The notes under the pieces: model-generated | Databases searched by the model: none | What the model was told of the DNA's origin: nothing | Seen by the model: the letters and a program-made list of their open reading frames with translations, nothing else | Position numbers and translations under genes: made by a program | Shown here: positions 1,971 to 6,488 of the stretch, in pieces | How positions within the stretch are numbered: position 1 is the stretch's first letter | Layout: every line of letters begins with the position of its first letter | Assembly: GCA_947463165.1 (NCBI GenBank) | Contig: CANHSW010000126.1 | Location: 1-6,488 of the forward strand | Reading direction: 5' to 3' | DNA: 6,488 bases | Source of the DNA: Cyanobacteriota bacterium | GTDB lineage: Bacteria > Cyanobacteriota > Cyanobacteriia > PCC-6307 > Cyanobiaceae

Positions 1971-2794
1971 GGGCCCTTGGAGCGGGGTGCCAGCGCCAAC
2001 GCCAGCAGAAAACCAGCCAGTTGAACGATCACCACACTGGGGCCGGAAGGCAGGCTTAAAGCACCGGAGAGCAGCAGGCCCAACACCGCACAGCCTCCCC
2101 CCAGGCCCGCCGCCACGGGCACATACAAATTGAAGCTGTTGCTCACCAGCCGGGAGGCGCAGGCTGGAATCACCACGAAGGCACTGATCAGCAACACCCC
2201 CACCGCCTTGATCGAGAGGGCCACCACCAGGGCCAGCACCACGATGAACAGCAACCGGTGCAGCCCCACGTCCACGCCCCGGGAGCGGGCCAGGGATTCA
2301 TCGAGGGTTAGCAGGATCTGATCACGACGGCTGAGCAGCAGGTAGCCGCTCGCCCCGATCAACAGCAGCAGGATCAGGCCTAGATCCAGCCAGGAAACGC
2401 CGAGGATGTCGCCAAATAACAGGTTTGCGATGCCGCCCTTATAGCTATCTACAAAACTGAGCGCCACCACGGCCAGGGCCAGGGAGGAGGAATAGATGAT
2501 ATTCAGCAGGGCGTCGGTGGGCAGGCGGTTGTTATCCACCAACCGGCTCACCATCAGCGCGAAGAGCACCGCAAAGGGGATAAGCACCAGGGTGGGATTC
2601 AGCCCCAGCAGGATGCCCAGGGTGATCCCCAGCAGGGCGGAATGGCCCAGGGCATCACTGAAAAAAGACAATTGGCGCAATACCGCAAAACTGCCCAACA
2701 GGCCGCCGAGGCTGCCGGTGAGCAGTCCTCCAATCAAGGCCCGTTGCATGAACGGTTGCTGCAGCAAATCCAGCCAGCCTTCCCAGGGGCTCAT
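1955..2794 (-). CDS. znuB: Zinc ABC transporter, membrane permease subunit ZnuB
   Basis: A 279-residue polytopic protein of the ABC-3 family, which carries Zn2+, Mn2+ or Fe2+ across the inner membrane. Family signatures are FSDALGHSALLG (45-56), the DESLARSRGVDV cytoplasmic segment (165-176) that normally contacts the ATPase, the KAVGVLLISAFVVIPACASRL stretch at 196-216, and a GPSVVIV segment near residue 251 in the last membrane helix. Its length is normal for the family. The ATG overlaps the znuC stop by four bases (ATGA), so the two are translationally coupled and made in one operon. Zinc rather than manganese specificity is inferred from the adjacent zur and from the histidine-rich loop of the partner binding protein. 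Confidence 0.93.
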   Translation of the reverse strand: MSPWEGWLDLLQQPFMQRALIGGLLTGSLGGLLGSFAVLRQLSFFSDALGHSALLGITLGILLGLNPTLVLIPFAVLFALMVSRLVDNNRLPTDALLNIIYSSSLALAVVALSFVDSYKGGIANLLFGDILGVSWLDLGLILLLLIGASGYLLLSRRDQILLTLDESLARSRGVDVGLHRLLFIVVLALVVALSIKAVGVLLISAFVVIPACASRLVSNSFNLYVPVAAGLGGGCAVLGLLLSGALSLPSGPSVVIVQLAGFLLALALAPRSKGPGAAG

Positions 2795-3576
2795 GGCAGC
2801 GGCGGACTGGGGGCGTGGTGATGCTGGTAGGGCACATAACCGCGGCCGTACACCTGCTCCAACTGCTGCGGCTGCAGGGCATGGTTGGGGGGGCCGGAGC
2901 AGCGCAGGCGGCGGTTTAGGCAGAGCACCCCGGTACAGGTGCGGCGCACCATCTCTAGATCATGAGATACCTGCAAAATTGTCCAGCCTTCGGTGCGGCG
3001 CAGCTGAAATAACAGGTTGTAAAAACTCTCCACCGCCTGGGCATCCAGCCCCGCCTGGGCTTCGTCGAGCACCAGCAGACGCCGGGGCCGCACCAGGCAA
3101 AAGGCCAACAACACCCGCTTTATTTGGCCCGGGGAGAGCTCGCTGATCAGCCGATCGGCCAGGTCTTGGCTGGCGGTCTTGCCCAGGGCCTGGACCACGG
3201 CCCGGCGGCGCTGCTCGCCCCCCCGCCAGGGCCAGCGCAGGCCGGCTGGATCCCAGCCCAAACCCACAAATTCGGCCACGGTGAGAGGAACGCGGCCCAC
3301 CAGCGGAAAGGTTTGAGGCAGGTAGGCCACCTGGGCGCGCACCGCTTCCGGTAGGCGGCCCTGGCGACTGAGGCGGTGGCCCAGCAATCTCACCTCCCCC
3401 TCCTGGTGGGGAATGATGCCGAGCAGCGCCTGCACCAGGCTGCTCTTGCCGGCGCCGTTGGGACCCACAAGGGCGGTATCGGTTTCCGCCGCCAGGCCAA
3501 AGCTCACCGCTTGCACCGCCGTGAGCGATCCGCGGCGCACGGTGAGCCCGCTGACTTCGAGAACCATTTCCGCCAT
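2791..3576 (-). CDS. znuC: Zinc ABC transporter, ATP-binding subunit ZnuC
   Basis: A 261-residue ABC ATPase that powers zinc import through ZnuB. Visible motifs: Walker A GPNGAGKS (38-45), Q-loop YLPQ (Gln88), signature LSPGQ (147-151), Walker B LLVLDE (Glu172), D-loop GLD (176-178) and switch His205. The signature has Pro where LSGGQ is usual, and Walker B continues DEAQAGLD instead of DEPTAGLD. All catalytic residues remain, so it should be active. The C-terminal tail carries HHH (252-254), possibly metal-related. The ATG at 3576 is used; a second Met at residue 4 is an alternative. It lies 48 bp after znuA, with a GC hairpin in that gap, and overlaps znuB by four bases. Confidence 0.93.
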   Translation of the reverse strand: MAEMVLEVSGLTVRRGSLTAVQAVSFGLAAETDTALVGPNGAGKSSLVQALLGIIPHQEGEVRLLGHRLSRQGRLPEAVRAQVAYLPQTFPLVGRVPLTVAEFVGLGWDPAGLRWPWRGGEQRRRAVVQALGKTASQDLADRLISELSPGQIKRVLLAFCLVRPRRLLVLDEAQAGLDAQAVESFYNLLFQLRRTEGWTILQVSHDLEMVRRTCTGVLCLNRRLRCSGPPNHALQPQQLEQVYGRGYVPYQHHHAPSPPLP

Positions 3577-3624: not shown

Positions 3625-4641
3625 TCAGCCCCCGAAGGCCGTTACCAGGGCATCGCCGTTGCGGCGCATGGTTTGGAGGTAGTAATCGCCCTGGCTGGCC
3701 GCTGCCGTGGGGCCACTCTCCAGGGAATCAAAGCTACCAATCTTCACCCCCAGGTCGCTGGCGAGGGCCTCAAATGAACTGCTATCCAGTTGGGGTTCGC
3801 TGAGCAGCGCCGTGAGGCCGGAAGCCTTCACCTGCTGGAGCACCCGCCTCAGGTCGGCTGGAGTTGGGTTTTCCTCTGGCATATCCACTAGAAAATTGGT
3901 TTTTAGTTGATAGCGAGCGGCGAAATAGGGGGTGAAATCATGGAAGGTTACAAACGTCTTGCCGGCATAGGGATTGAGCTTCTGGGCCAGCTCGGCATTG
4001 AGCCGGCGCAACTGGGCGGTGTAACTGGCGGCATTGGCGGTGAATTTTGTTCTACAGGAGGGCTGGGCGGCGATCAAGCCATCGCGGATGCCGTTCACCT
4101 GCTGGATAGCGAGCACAGGATCCAGCCAAATGTGGGGGTTTGGCCCTGCGCCAACTTTGGCATTTGCTTCTGGGTGACCATGGTCATGGCCATGATCATG
4201 GGCGGCGCTTTCCAAGGTGGCGATTCCTTGGCTGGAATCGATCAGGCGCAGGCGGGGGTTGTCGGCATTGGCGATTAATTTATCTAAGAAAACTTCCAGG
4301 CCCAAGCCATTTTTTACCAGCACATCGGCATGGCGCAGTCGCACCAGCTGGTCGGGATTTGCCTGAAAGTCGTGGGGGCCAACGTTGCTGGGAATCAGCG
4401 GCATCACTTCGGCGCAATCGCCGGCCACCGCTCTGGTAAATATCGTGATCGGCAGGATGGTGGTCACCACCTGGAGGCGCTGGCCAGGGGCACTACCGCC
4501 AAATTTGTGAACCGCGCCGCAGCTTGTCAGCAGCAGGGCTGCTGGCAGGAGGGCGGTTTTCAGGCCAGTCTTCAGCCCAGCCTTCAGGCCAGTTGCCAGG
4601 GAGGCAAGCGGCGCCGGCCAAGGAGCTCGCAACACAAACAC
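3625..4641 (-). CDS. znuA: Zinc ABC transporter, substrate-binding lipoprotein ZnuA
   Basis: A cluster A-I binding protein that captures zinc in the periplasm for ZnuBC. From GTG 4641 it has 338 residues. A signal peptide ends in the lipobox LLTSC (Cys41), so it is probably a lipid-anchored protein. Expected metal ligands are present: His90 (GPHDF), His170 (NPHIWLD), His234 (TFHDF) and a late acidic residue at about Asp305 (FDSLE). A short His/Asp loop HDHGHDHGH (148-156) is typical of ZnuA rather than manganese-binding relatives. Start choice is uncertain: the frame extends to GTG 4671 and contains ATG 4665, but these fall inside the presumed Zur operator and would make the signal peptide about 50 residues, so GTG 4641 (or 4635, or TTG 4632) is preferred. 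The signal region contains a threefold GLK(A/T) repeat. It is the first gene of znuACB. Confidence 0.92.
   Translation of the reverse strand: MFVLRAPWPAPLASLATGLKAGLKTGLKTALLPAALLLTSCGAVHKFGGSAPGQRLQVVTTILPITIFTRAVAGDCAEVMPLIPSNVGPHDFQANPDQLVRLRHADVLVKNGLGLEVFLDKLIANADNPRLRLIDSSQGIATLESAAHDHGHDHGHPEANAKVGAGPNPHIWLDPVLAIQQVNGIRDGLIAAQPSCRTKFTANAASYTAQLRRLNAELAQKLNPYAGKTFVTFHDFTPYFAARYQLKTNFLVDMPEENPTPADLRRVLQQVKASGLTALLSEPQLDSSSFEALASDLGVKIGSFDSLESGPTAAASQGDYYLQTMRRNGDALVTAFGG
4555..4590 (-). repeat. Three 12-bp tandem repeats in the znuA signal peptide
   Basis: Three consecutive 12-base units of the type CTGAAGRCTGGC encode GLKA-GLKT-GLKT just before the hydrophobic core. They supply three lysines to the n-region of the signal peptide. 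The repeat looks like a recent slippage expansion; it keeps the reading frame. Confidence 0.7.
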
Positions 4642-4651
4642 GCGACCGCCG

Positions 4652-4671
4652 CCAATGGGAACCATTATCAC
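4652..4671. promoter_or_regulatory. Candidate Zur operator at znuA
   Basis: The plus strand reads AATGGGAACCATTATCA at 4654-4670, with AATGG/CCATT symmetry around a 3-bp centre and an ATTATCA half-site like those in Fur/Zur boxes. On the znuA strand it reads TGATAATGG and so contains GATAAT, a good -10 hexamer, so a bound repressor would block the promoter. The same 17-mer with one difference recurs at 5941-5957 before the porin. Regulation by Zur is inferred from the neighbouring zur and the transporter genes. Confidence 0.7.
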
Positions 4672-4714
4672 CGATCAGCGCCAAGACAGGCGGGCTGTGC
4701 TGGTGAGGGGCGCT

Positions 4715-4758
4715 CGTCAGTTGGCGTGAGTGTGCCAAGCCAGGGCGACAGTTGGCAT
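4715..4758. repeat. Paired 13-bp direct repeat upstream of znuA
   Basis: CGTCAGTTGGCGT (4715-4727) and CGACAGTTGGCAT (4746-4758) match at 11 of 13 positions and are 31 bp apart, about three helical turns. A complementary GCCAA lies between them (4734-4738), so either copy can pair with it as a small hairpin. They sit roughly 45-90 bp upstream of the candidate znuA operator and could bind a regulator. No known factor is recognised. Confidence 0.4.
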
Positions 4759-4820
4759 CCTGGCCCTGCGCAGCCGGTCTCGAATCGCCCTTCTGCAGCG
4801 CTCCAGCTCTATTTTTACCC

Positions 4821-4886
4821 TCCACATTCACATCCACATCCACATCCACATCCCCCTTTACATCCACATCTCCCTTTACATCCACA
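4821..4886. repeat. TCCACA hexamer / 18-bp minisatellite between the dioxygenase and znuA
   Basis: The stretch is built of TCCACA units (one variant TTCACA at 4827), with two 12-base insertions of the form TCYCCCTTTACA. Two 18-bp units, at 4845-4862 and 4863-4880, differ at a single base. It begins 8 bp past the dioxygenase stop and lies in its 3' flank, upstream of the znuA promoter. Such repeats change length by slippage. No gene is credible across it, although every frame is open. Confidence 0.8.
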
Positions 4887-4893
4887 CCCAGCT

Positions 4894-5559
4894 TCAATCT
4901 GCCCACATCCTCAGCAAGTTTGTGTAACTGCGGCTGATCAGGTCGAAGGCTTCCGTTTTGCCCAGTTGATTAAATAGCAGCCGCCTCGCCGTATCCAGCT
5001 CGAACAGCAGCTCCCGCCGCTCGGCGTTGCGGATGCGGCTCTGGATCCAGCCCACGCACACTAGCCGCTGCCCCTCAATCACCGGCTCCACCCGGTGCAG
5101 CAGGGTGCTGGGGTAGACGATCGCAGCGCCGGCCTCTAGGCGGATCGACTCCTCGCCATGGGGGAACTGCAGCACCAGTGCTCCGCCGCTGTAGTCCTCC
5201 GGCGGCGTCAGGAACAGGGTGAAGGAGAGATCGGAGCGGCCTGCCGCCATGAAGGCATTGTCCACATGGCTGCCATAGCCCTCTCCCGGCCCGCAAAGGC
5301 TGAACAGCAGTCCGTGCACCTCAACCGGCAGGGCCGCCGAACAGAGCAGTGGCTGGCCTAGCAGCGCCTTGTTCACCTGGGCCGCCAGGTTCTGATGCAG
5401 CGCTGAGCTCCGGTCCAATTGGCGGTTGTGCTTCACCGCCCGGGCATGCCAGCCAGCCGTCTGCTCACCTGGCTTCCAGGGCACATCTGACGCCAGCAAT
5501 TGGCCTCGCCAGTCGAGCAGCTGCTGATCCGTGAGTAGCGATTCAAGTTGAAAGCGCAT
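4894..5559 (-). CDS. PKHD-type Fe(II)/2-oxoglutarate dioxygenase (PiuC/YbiX-like)
   Basis: A 221-residue cytoplasmic enzyme, the usual length for the PKHD hydroxylase family. The double-stranded beta-helix core carries the iron triad His98-x-Asp100 (YGSHVDNAFM) and His155 (STLLHRVEPV), and Arg165 to bind 2-oxoglutarate (GQRLVCVGWIQS). The RSDLSFTLFLTPPEDYSGGAL stretch (108-128) and the C-terminal RRELLFELD (181-189) also match PiuC. The physiological substrate of PiuC is not known; in proteobacteria the gene usually sits next to TonB-dependent iron-siderophore receptors. Here it is instead upstream of znuA on the same strand, and divergent from a small lipoprotein gene by 105 bp. I see no copy of the znuA/porin operator before it. 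Its 3' side has a hexamer repeat and no clear terminator, so read-through into znuA is possible. Confidence 0.88.
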   Translation of the reverse strand: MRFQLESLLTDQQLLDWRGQLLASDVPWKPGEQTAGWHARAVKHNRQLDRSSALHQNLAAQVNKALLGQPLLCSAALPVEVHGLLFSLCGPGEGYGSHVDNAFMAAGRSDLSFTLFLTPPEDYSGGALVLQFPHGEESIRLEAGAAIVYPSTLLHRVEPVIEGQRLVCVGWIQSRIRNAERRELLFELDTARRLLFNQLGKTEAFDLISRSYTNLLRMWAD

Positions 5560-5664
5560 CGATCCAGGCTTGGTAGGTAACTAAAGGCACCTGCAGTTGT
5601 GCCCTATGGCCGAGCAAGGGCAGTCCAGCCAGGCACAATCTCCAGGATCCGATCTTCCTTCGCC

Positions 5665-5919
5665 ATGCAACGCGGCAGCATCGCCATCTTCCTCACCGCC
5701 GCCGGCCTGCTGGCCGGCACCGTCGGCTGTGGCAAGGCTCCCGAGCCCAGGGATTCGAATGCCCCCTCCATGGAGCGCAGCGCGCCGGGCTCAGCTGAGT
5801 ACAACAAAGATCACAACGACGACGACTCCGATAAAAAGGAAAAGTCCGACAAACACGATTCTGATAAGTCAGGGGAGGGCGGCGAAGGCGGCGAAGGCGG
5901 CGAGGGCGGAGAGGGCTGA
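5665..5919 (+). CDS. Small acidic lipoprotein with C-terminal Gly-Glu-Gly repeats
   Basis: An 84-residue protein I cannot assign to a named family. Residues 1-21 form a signal peptide (IAIFLTAAGLLAGTVG) followed by Cys22, a plausible if non-ideal lipobox (TVGC). The mature chain is very hydrophilic: a Lys/Asp/Ser-rich region at 46-69 with His50 and His64, including NDDDSDKKEKSDKHDSDK, then five GEG repeats (70-84) encoded by 9-bp units. It is probably unfolded and anchored in a membrane facing the periplasm. The many carboxylates and two histidines could bind divalent metal weakly, which is speculation prompted by the zinc neighbours. The ATG at 5665 is chosen because the signal peptide begins there; the frame's extension to 5599 starts at GTG and adds no hydrophobic core. 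The 35-bp palindrome follows the stop by 10 bases, and the porin gene lies downstream. Confidence 0.72.
   Translation: MQRGSIAIFLTAAGLLAGTVGCGKAPEPRDSNAPSMERSAPGSAEYNKDHNDDDSDKKEKSDKHDSDKSGEGGEGGEGGEGGEG
5872..5916 (+). repeat. Five 9-bp tandem repeats coding GEG
   Basis: Five successive 9-base units of the form GGSGARGGC encode five Gly-Glu-Gly triplets at the end of the small lipoprotein and run up to its stop codon. The unit number is likely to vary between strains by slippage without frameshift. Confidence 0.8.
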
Positions 5920-5929
5920 GTCCCAAATG

Positions 5930-5964
5930 CCCCAAATGAAAATGGGAGCCATTATCATTTGGGG
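5930..5964. promoter_or_regulatory. 35-bp palindrome: candidate Zur operator before the porin and possible terminator
   Basis: CCCCAAATGAAAATGG (5930-5945) is the reverse complement of CCATTATCATTTGGGG (5949-5964) apart from one A/A mismatch, with only GAG between. Its core, 5941-5957, equals the znuA operator candidate at 16 of 17 bases. In RNA it would form a long stem with GC clamps, but no U-run follows. It starts 10 bases after the small lipoprotein stop and about 90 bases before the porin start. It may both end the first transcript and control the second. Confidence 0.68.
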
Positions 5965-6050
5965 CAGATGCCGCCTCCCGAGCTTCGCCAGGGGCTCTGG
6001 GGTAGCTAATCAAGCGATCCCGATCGCCACCATCCCCATTTAGGCAACCG

Positions 6051-6488
6051 ATGGCCCAACCTCATTTGCACCGGTTCGCCCGAGGTCTGCTGCTGGCTGC
6101 AGCCCTTGTTCCGGTTGCAGCCGCTGCTACTGCCGCTGCCGGGGCCGAACAAAATCTTCAGGAATTGGGCCGCTATGGCGATCCGGCGGCCAGCAAGGAG
6201 CAGGTAGCTGGCATCTCCCAGTTTGCCGATCTGCGGCCCACCGACTGGGCCTACCAGGCCCTCTCAAACCTGATCGAGCGCTACGGCTGCGTTGCCGGCT
6301 ACGCCAATGGCAGCTTCCAAGGCGGCCAGACGATCAGCCGCTATGAAGCCGCAGCCCTGCTCAACGCCTGCCTCGATCGAGTCACCGAGGTGACCGATCA
6401 GCTTAAAAAGCTAATCAAGGAATTCGAGCAGGAACTCGCCGTACTGCGCGGCCGGGTGGATGGCCTGGAAGCTCGGCTGGGGGAGCTG
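6051..6488 (+). CDS. SLH-domain outer-membrane porin (cyanobacterial iron-uptake porin/Som family), N-terminal part, cut by window edge
   Basis: The first 146 residues are visible and the frame is open at the right edge. A signal peptide (about 1-32, FARGLLLAAALVPVAAAA) is followed by one SLH domain at about 54-115. It carries the cyanobacterial porin signature FADLRPTDWAYQAL, ERYGCVAGYANGSF and SRYEAAALLNACLDR, including the two cysteines Cys80 and Cys107 usual in this family. The SLH domain normally anchors the porin to the peptidoglycan-linked polymer. Residues 112-146 form a heptad-like coiled coil (VTDQLKKLIKEFEQELAVL). The missing part should be a beta-barrel of several hundred residues. 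Automatic annotation often calls these iron-uptake porins, but the candidate Zur operator about 90 bp upstream suggests a zinc-responsive member. The ATG at 6051 is the first start before the signal peptide; only a weak AGG precedes it. Confidence 0.9.
   Translation, partial: MAQPHLHRFARGLLLAAALVPVAAAATAAAGAEQNLQELGRYGDPAASKEQVAGISQFADLRPTDWAYQALSNLIERYGCVAGYANGSFQGGQTISRYEAAALLNACLDRVTEVTDQLKKLIKEFEQELAVLRGRVDGLEARLGEL

Follow-up and report, generated by a model that had tools for sequence, protein, structure and literature searches.

Candidate Zur operators before znuA and an outer-membrane porin gene in a picocyanobacterial zinc gene cluster

Introduction

The closest described system is that of Synechococcus sp. 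WH8102, in which Zur (SynZur, SYNW2401) has operators at znuA/znuC and at bmtA, and activates the latter gene (PMC9337993). The WH8102 Zur regulon comprises eight genes, and in the portion of the main text available the word "porin" is absent (PMC9337993). In Anabaena sp. PCC 7120, Zur connects outer- and inner-membrane zinc uptake, and its outer-membrane targets are TonB-dependent receptors (PMC6103462, PMC10957091, PMC9705863). According to the available part of one of these reports, none of the Anabaena porin-like genes investigated was found to be Zur-regulated (PMC9705863). Furthermore, the porin MspD of Mycobacterium smegmatis, which lies beside the Zur-regulated ZnuABC, is induced by zinc starvation and by the loss of Zur (PMC13098993). 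A Zur-controlled cyanobacterial porin is not reported in titles and abstract openings of the open-access literature searched, and the accessible parts of two other cyanobacterial Zur studies mention no porin. To our knowledge, the outer-membrane passage of zinc in picocyanobacteria is poorly known.

The locus described here has the same type of Zur as WH8102 and likewise a predicted Zur box before znuA. One box serves the divergent znuA and znuC in WH8102 (PMC9337993), whereas znuA, znuC, and znuB all have the same orientation in the present locus. As in Anabaena, Zur would connect the uptake of zinc across the outer and inner membranes, but the outer-membrane candidate is a porin rather than a TonB-dependent receptor. 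Compared with MspD, both the outer membrane and the porin are unrelated, since the candidate is a por_somb protein with an SLH domain. By score it belongs to the por_somb "iron uptake porin" family (NCBIfam NF033921), from which it differs in its predicted zinc control, and some of its relatives share an operon with the genes of a zinc-type ABC importer. We consider it probable that two near-identical sequences of this locus are Zur operators, one before znuA-znuC-znuB and the other before the outer-membrane porin gene.

Results and Discussion

Gene content and the Zur regulator

The window, meaning the whole stretch of DNA analysed (6488 bases), corresponds to all of contig C126 of the genome G000, which is incomplete (77.66%) and comprises 332 contigs with 2.27 Mb in total. 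It contains, in order, a TIGR03943-like gene (-), an ArsP_1 permease gene (-), zur (1470-1928, +), znuB for the permease (1955-2794, -; PF00950), znuC for the ATPase (2791-3576, -; PF00005), and znuA for the zinc-binding protein of the importer (3625-4671, -, putative start; PF01297, 232 bits). These are followed by a PKHD-type Fe(II) hydroxylase gene (-), a small acidic ORF (+), and the start of a por_somb porin gene (6051-6488, +). The porin gene is truncated by the contig end, and its N-terminal 146 aa include an SLH domain. This fragment scored 115.8 bits against the NCBIfam por_somb model, above the cut-off of 100, and the complete porin of G002, a genome of the same genus, scored 248.7 bits and had an OprB domain in addition.

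The TIGR03943-like protein scored under the cut-off of that model. Its gene and the ArsP_1 permease gene form a pair (2-1479) beside zur, and many loci of the family have this pair in the vicinity of zur or znuA. The small ORF (5665-5919) encodes an acidic, Gly/Glu-rich product with a lipoprotein-like start, and among the 42 loci searched it was present only in the window and G002. In addition, CACATC-type short repeats lie between znuA and the hydroxylase gene (about 4825-4890), and this form is absent from G002.

The preliminary description had named zur in the window, and the gene product indeed matched PF01475 (64 bits) as a predicted Fur-family zinc sensor. Its closest PDB entry was 7ne9 (E 2.2e-47), the Zur of Synechococcus sp. 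WH8102 (PMC9337993). In the alignment to this entry, the protein retained D77, H79, C95, and H115 together with the structural residues C83, C86, C123, and C126, the sensory and structural roles being those given for SynZur (PMC9337993). Having both sets of residues, it was assigned to the SynZur type.

The two near-identical sites

A single 17-bp element had been claimed for znuA and the porin, and the two copies were found as AATGGGAACCATTATCA at 4654-4670 and AATGGGAGCCATTATCA at 5941-5957. They were identical at 16 of 17 positions and were the only matches in the window within three mismatches. The claim that such a likeness is improbable by chance was borne out, as shuffled windows gave a mean of 0.01. 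The placement in start-region or non-coding DNA was also correct. The 5' end of the open znuA frame lies inside the znuA copy, and the first start-type codon of this frame, the putative start, is at 4671; the porin copy is non-coding, with 93 bases between it and the porin ATG (6051).

The genome scan proposed in the preliminary description gave no additional copies of the 17-mer at zero or one mismatch in the 2.27 Mb of G000. Up to three mismatches, 11 places were obtained (the two of the window at zero, one at two, and eight at three), compared with 3 places for the backwards control. Among the two other genomes of the genus, both sites were exactly retained in G002 (C51:7525 and 8849), with the same gene order; the named collection lists this contig under Cyanobacteria bacterium UBA5018 (L214). 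No match to the 17-mer within two mismatches was found in the other, G001, where boxes of 13.9 and 15.5 bits, as scored below, precede a more distant porin and a znuA, respectively. Upstream of znuA, 247 of 427 columns align between G000 and G002, and the 17-mer is intact. The conservation of the porin site carries little weight, because the DNA of the porin region is identical at 167 of 180 positions between the two genomes.

The AATGG-N3-CCATT symmetry was present as described, and at the porin it makes up the centre of a 39-bp inverted repeat with an 18-3-18 layout (5928-5966; arms 5928-5945 and 5949-5966, 94% complementary), which encloses the site. The search returned no inverted repeat of at least 8 around the znuA copy. 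The RNA of 5920-5985 folds at about -27 kcal/mol, and none of 200 shuffles was equally stable. No T tract follows the hairpin and no terminator-like site was found in 4400-6200, so the repeat did not qualify as an intrinsic terminator and a terminator role is less likely; a hairpin in RNA may be an added effect of the repeat. Sigma-70-like promoters were also absent from 4400-6200 (0 found, 0.3 expected). With none near either site, a block to RNA polymerase cannot be assigned a position.

The conserved box and its symmetry

The znuA gene was detected in 40 of the 121 family genomes. A symmetric 15-bp motif was trained on 34 of 41 znuA loci, after removal of seven, of which four belonged to the genus of the window and three were fragmentary or at contig edges, and it was grown from two seeds picked after the upstream regions had been viewed. 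A site was obtained at 30 of the 34 training loci, all of other genera, with the 15-bp consensus TGAGAAYSRTTCTCA. In the window, the best match was the core of the znuA site, TGGGAACCATTATCA, at 4656-4670 (18.9 of 26.4 bits), followed by the core of the porin site at 5943-5957 (13.3 bits). Both sites thus fit the box common to znuA promoters of related genera. A score of 13.3 bits was reached 0.0067 times per shuffled window, and 18.9 bits in none of 300 shuffles. Since the znuA site fits a motif derived from promoters of other genera, it is one member of a family of znuA boxes. A third match at the znuC start (3558-3572, 12.5 bits) lies within coding sequence and was not counted.

The symmetry was different in part from that in the preliminary description, which had proposed an operator with a 3-bp centre. 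In 30 znuA boxes that scored 14 bits or more and came from outside the genus, 0.62 of the pairs matched at a 7-1-7 centre, which lies three positions from the proposed one, compared with 0.40 and 0.41 at three bases to either side. In 41 porin boxes, the fraction was 0.57 at the 7-1-7 centre and 0.61 at an axis three bases away, but these boxes had been oriented to the fuller flank before the count, which favours the second axis. The 3-bp centre was therefore retained as a second axis, and not as the centre of the conserved core, which is 15 bp with a single-base centre. By this comparison, the core appears to be a 7-1-7 palindrome, and at porins a third half-site often seems to overlap with it, giving a 21-bp unit. 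In the model for the Fur family, two overlapping dimers occupy overlapping operator frames, and the 21-bp unit could by analogy hold two overlapping Zur dimers. Because overlapping 7-1-7 frames suit overlapping dimers, the porin unit of the window was read as 5937-5957, TGAAAATGGGAGCCATTATCA, a predicted operator with its core in second rank.

A degenerate 15-mer, TGRDAAYSRTTHYCA, was also tried. It occurred exactly at 17 sites in 16 other genomes, compared with 2 in the control, and in G000 and G002 it matched exactly at znuA alone. The porin site belongs to its one-mismatch matches, of which there were 12 in G000 and 14 in G002 versus 9 and 9 in the controls, and the 15-mer was dropped as evidence for the porin.

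Boxes before related porins

A porin at E <= 1e-40 was present in 38 of the 40 znuA-bearing genomes, counting the porins among the matches listed. The 300 bases upstream of each were scored, and identity was measured to the G002 porin. Among the matches listed, a box scoring 9 bits or more preceded 21 of 23 porins with at least 57% identity, a limit set after the box scores had been seen, compared with 2 of the 46 paralogs retrieved (50 rows minus four duplicates), which are a subset of all paralogs. The Fisher p for this difference was about 2e-13, with the relatives being non-independent. At 12 bits or more, the corresponding listed matches were 16 of 23 close porins and one paralog. When the window's genus was excluded, 19 of the 21 close porins listed still had such a box at the 9-bit limit; the close porins without a box among the matches listed were L082 and L093.

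A wider set of named relatives, chiefly Synechococcus, Cyanobium, and Vulcanococcus, was formed by the best 80 of 305 stretches encoding a relative, of which 77 had sufficient upstream sequence. Among these best 80 of 305, boxes preceded 25 of the 48 porins with at least 60% identity and 4 of the 29 with at most 58%. By neighbourhood, boxes were found in 17 of 28 rows when zur or znuA lay within the retrieved flanks (up to 8 kb) and in 12 of 49 when neither did. Identity to the porin failed as a predictor of the box in this named set, as many porins of 67-72% identity were boxless. On a tree of 122 porins, built by a quick method with SH-aLRT support only and without the window fragment, which was too short for inclusion, the box label required 12 changes versus 33.9 when shuffled, so that boxes were clustered but in several clades. 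Within the subclade of the G002 porin, 4 of 26 scored rows had a box. In four of the boxless rows (L236, L238, L240, and L243), the region separating zur from the porin contains a box some 1.2-1.3 kb farther upstream. A gene lies between this box and the porin, and in L238 it encodes a ZnuA-family protein.

The strongest single comparison is Vulcanococcus limneticus LL, whose porin gene, about 4.3 kb from zur, is preceded by the znuA 17-mer of the window letter for letter. The probability of such an exact match by chance in 600 start points is about 3.5e-8. In the same collection, contigs titled Bifidobacterium breve (L215 and L259) encode cyanobacterial por_somb-like porins, and this public bin is probably misnamed.

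Whole-genome search with the porin-box model

The 28 boxes used to build a sequence model (R1) came from porins in other genera. Across G000 at E <= 10, the model returned three places: the znuA site of the window, C133:4004 before a second znuACB, and C133:1860 before a CobW-family GTPase gene. All three places in this 77.66% complete genome lie at zinc-type genes, which favours Zur over Fur. Across G002, the znuA site was the one place returned. The window-type porin site was missing from the searches of both genomes at E <= 10, and on the window alone, with filters off, the porin site scored 9.7 bits (E 0.01). Genome-wide, the znuA site stands out in its own genome and the porin site does not. 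The porin site is best regarded as a degenerate member of the family, supported through the comparison and the 16 of 17 positions that it shares with the znuA site, and not by its own score.

On contig C133 of G000 (L083), the second znuACB lies behind the CobW-family GTPase gene and a second ORF. The Zur-like boxes there are at 1865-1879 before the GTPase gene (15.4 bits) and at 4009-4023 before the second znuA (15.0 bits).

Porin-importer operons and riboswitches

In three loci, L091 (G124), L093 (G099), and L271 (Synechococcus sp. UW140), the porin gene is followed on one strand by znuA-znuC-znuB, with 24-37 nt between the porin stop and the first possible znuA start. This adjacency ties the porin to the importer independently of any motif. 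The porin is preceded by a 16.3-bit box in L091 and by a cobalamin riboswitch in L093 (9986-10136, -; 60.5 bits), which is of the same genus as L091, and in L271 (7722-7868, +; 56.1 bits). A Zur-like box in one case and a cobalamin riboswitch in the others at the head of the same gene order suggests an exchange of switches. The riboswitch-headed operons of L093 and L271 may be for cobalt, in which case zinc would not be the metal of every porin-importer pair.

Alternative explanations

The proposal of a Zur operator linking importer and porin was upheld at different strengths for its two parts. A Zur operator at znuA is well supported and nearly certain; the one at the porin is likely, being supported by comparison and weaker at the single site. 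It is also conceivable, though unlikely, that the znuA site alone is a Zur operator and that the porin copy forms the loop end of a terminator hairpin for transcription of the small ORF at 5665-5919, its likeness to the znuA site being chance or a relic. The 18-3-18 repeat begins 8 bases past this ORF and is very stable as RNA, the porin site fell under the whole-genome threshold of R1, and the majority of porins in its subclade are boxless. A terminator is, however, at odds with the lack of a T tract or terminator-like site in 4400-6200, and the boxes of related porins occur without such a repeat. Moreover, the 16/17 identity and the occurrence of the exact znuA 17-mer upstream of the porin in V. 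limneticus speak against this reading.

The regulator could instead be another member of the Fur family (Fur or PerR), with the porin and znuABC answering to iron or peroxide, which we judge to be improbable. Fur-family operators resemble one another, G000 has three Fur-family genes (zur and two more), and the porin family is named for iron; against this, the R1 matches in G000, as far as that genome is complete, were solely at zinc-type genes, and the boxes accompany znuA, often near zur. That the copies are a dispersed or mobile repeat with no regulatory role is suggested by their near-identity at a distance of 1.3 kb, but the flanks of the two sites differ, and the whole-genome scans, with no further copy inside one mismatch in G000 and the long inverted repeat occurring once each in G000 and G002, led to its rejection as extremely improbable.

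Proposed regulation and significance

If both sites are Zur operators, zinc-loaded Zur, encoded in the same cluster, would sit on both and block transcription, and in zinc shortage it would leave, so that ZnuABC and the porin would rise together. Zur binding, repression by that binding, and the passage of zinc through the porin are the steps that we infer; the direction is assumed to be repression; SynZur also activates a gene. More broadly, one branch of the cyanobacterial "iron uptake" porins might serve metal ABC importers as their dedicated gate in the outer membrane, joined to them by a common Zur operator or by an operon with znuABC, and in some members a swap between Zur box and cobalamin riboswitch might re-task the porin-importer pair between zinc and cobalt. 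This wider proposal is tentative, and we hold it to be possible rather than probable.

A porin under Zur, if true, would be the outer-membrane step of picocyanobacterial zinc import, and one protein, Zur, would adjust zinc entry across both membranes. In that case, zinc starvation would raise znuA and this porin together, with the other porins of the same genome unresponsive. Furthermore, annotations as "iron uptake porin" may then conceal porins for other metals.
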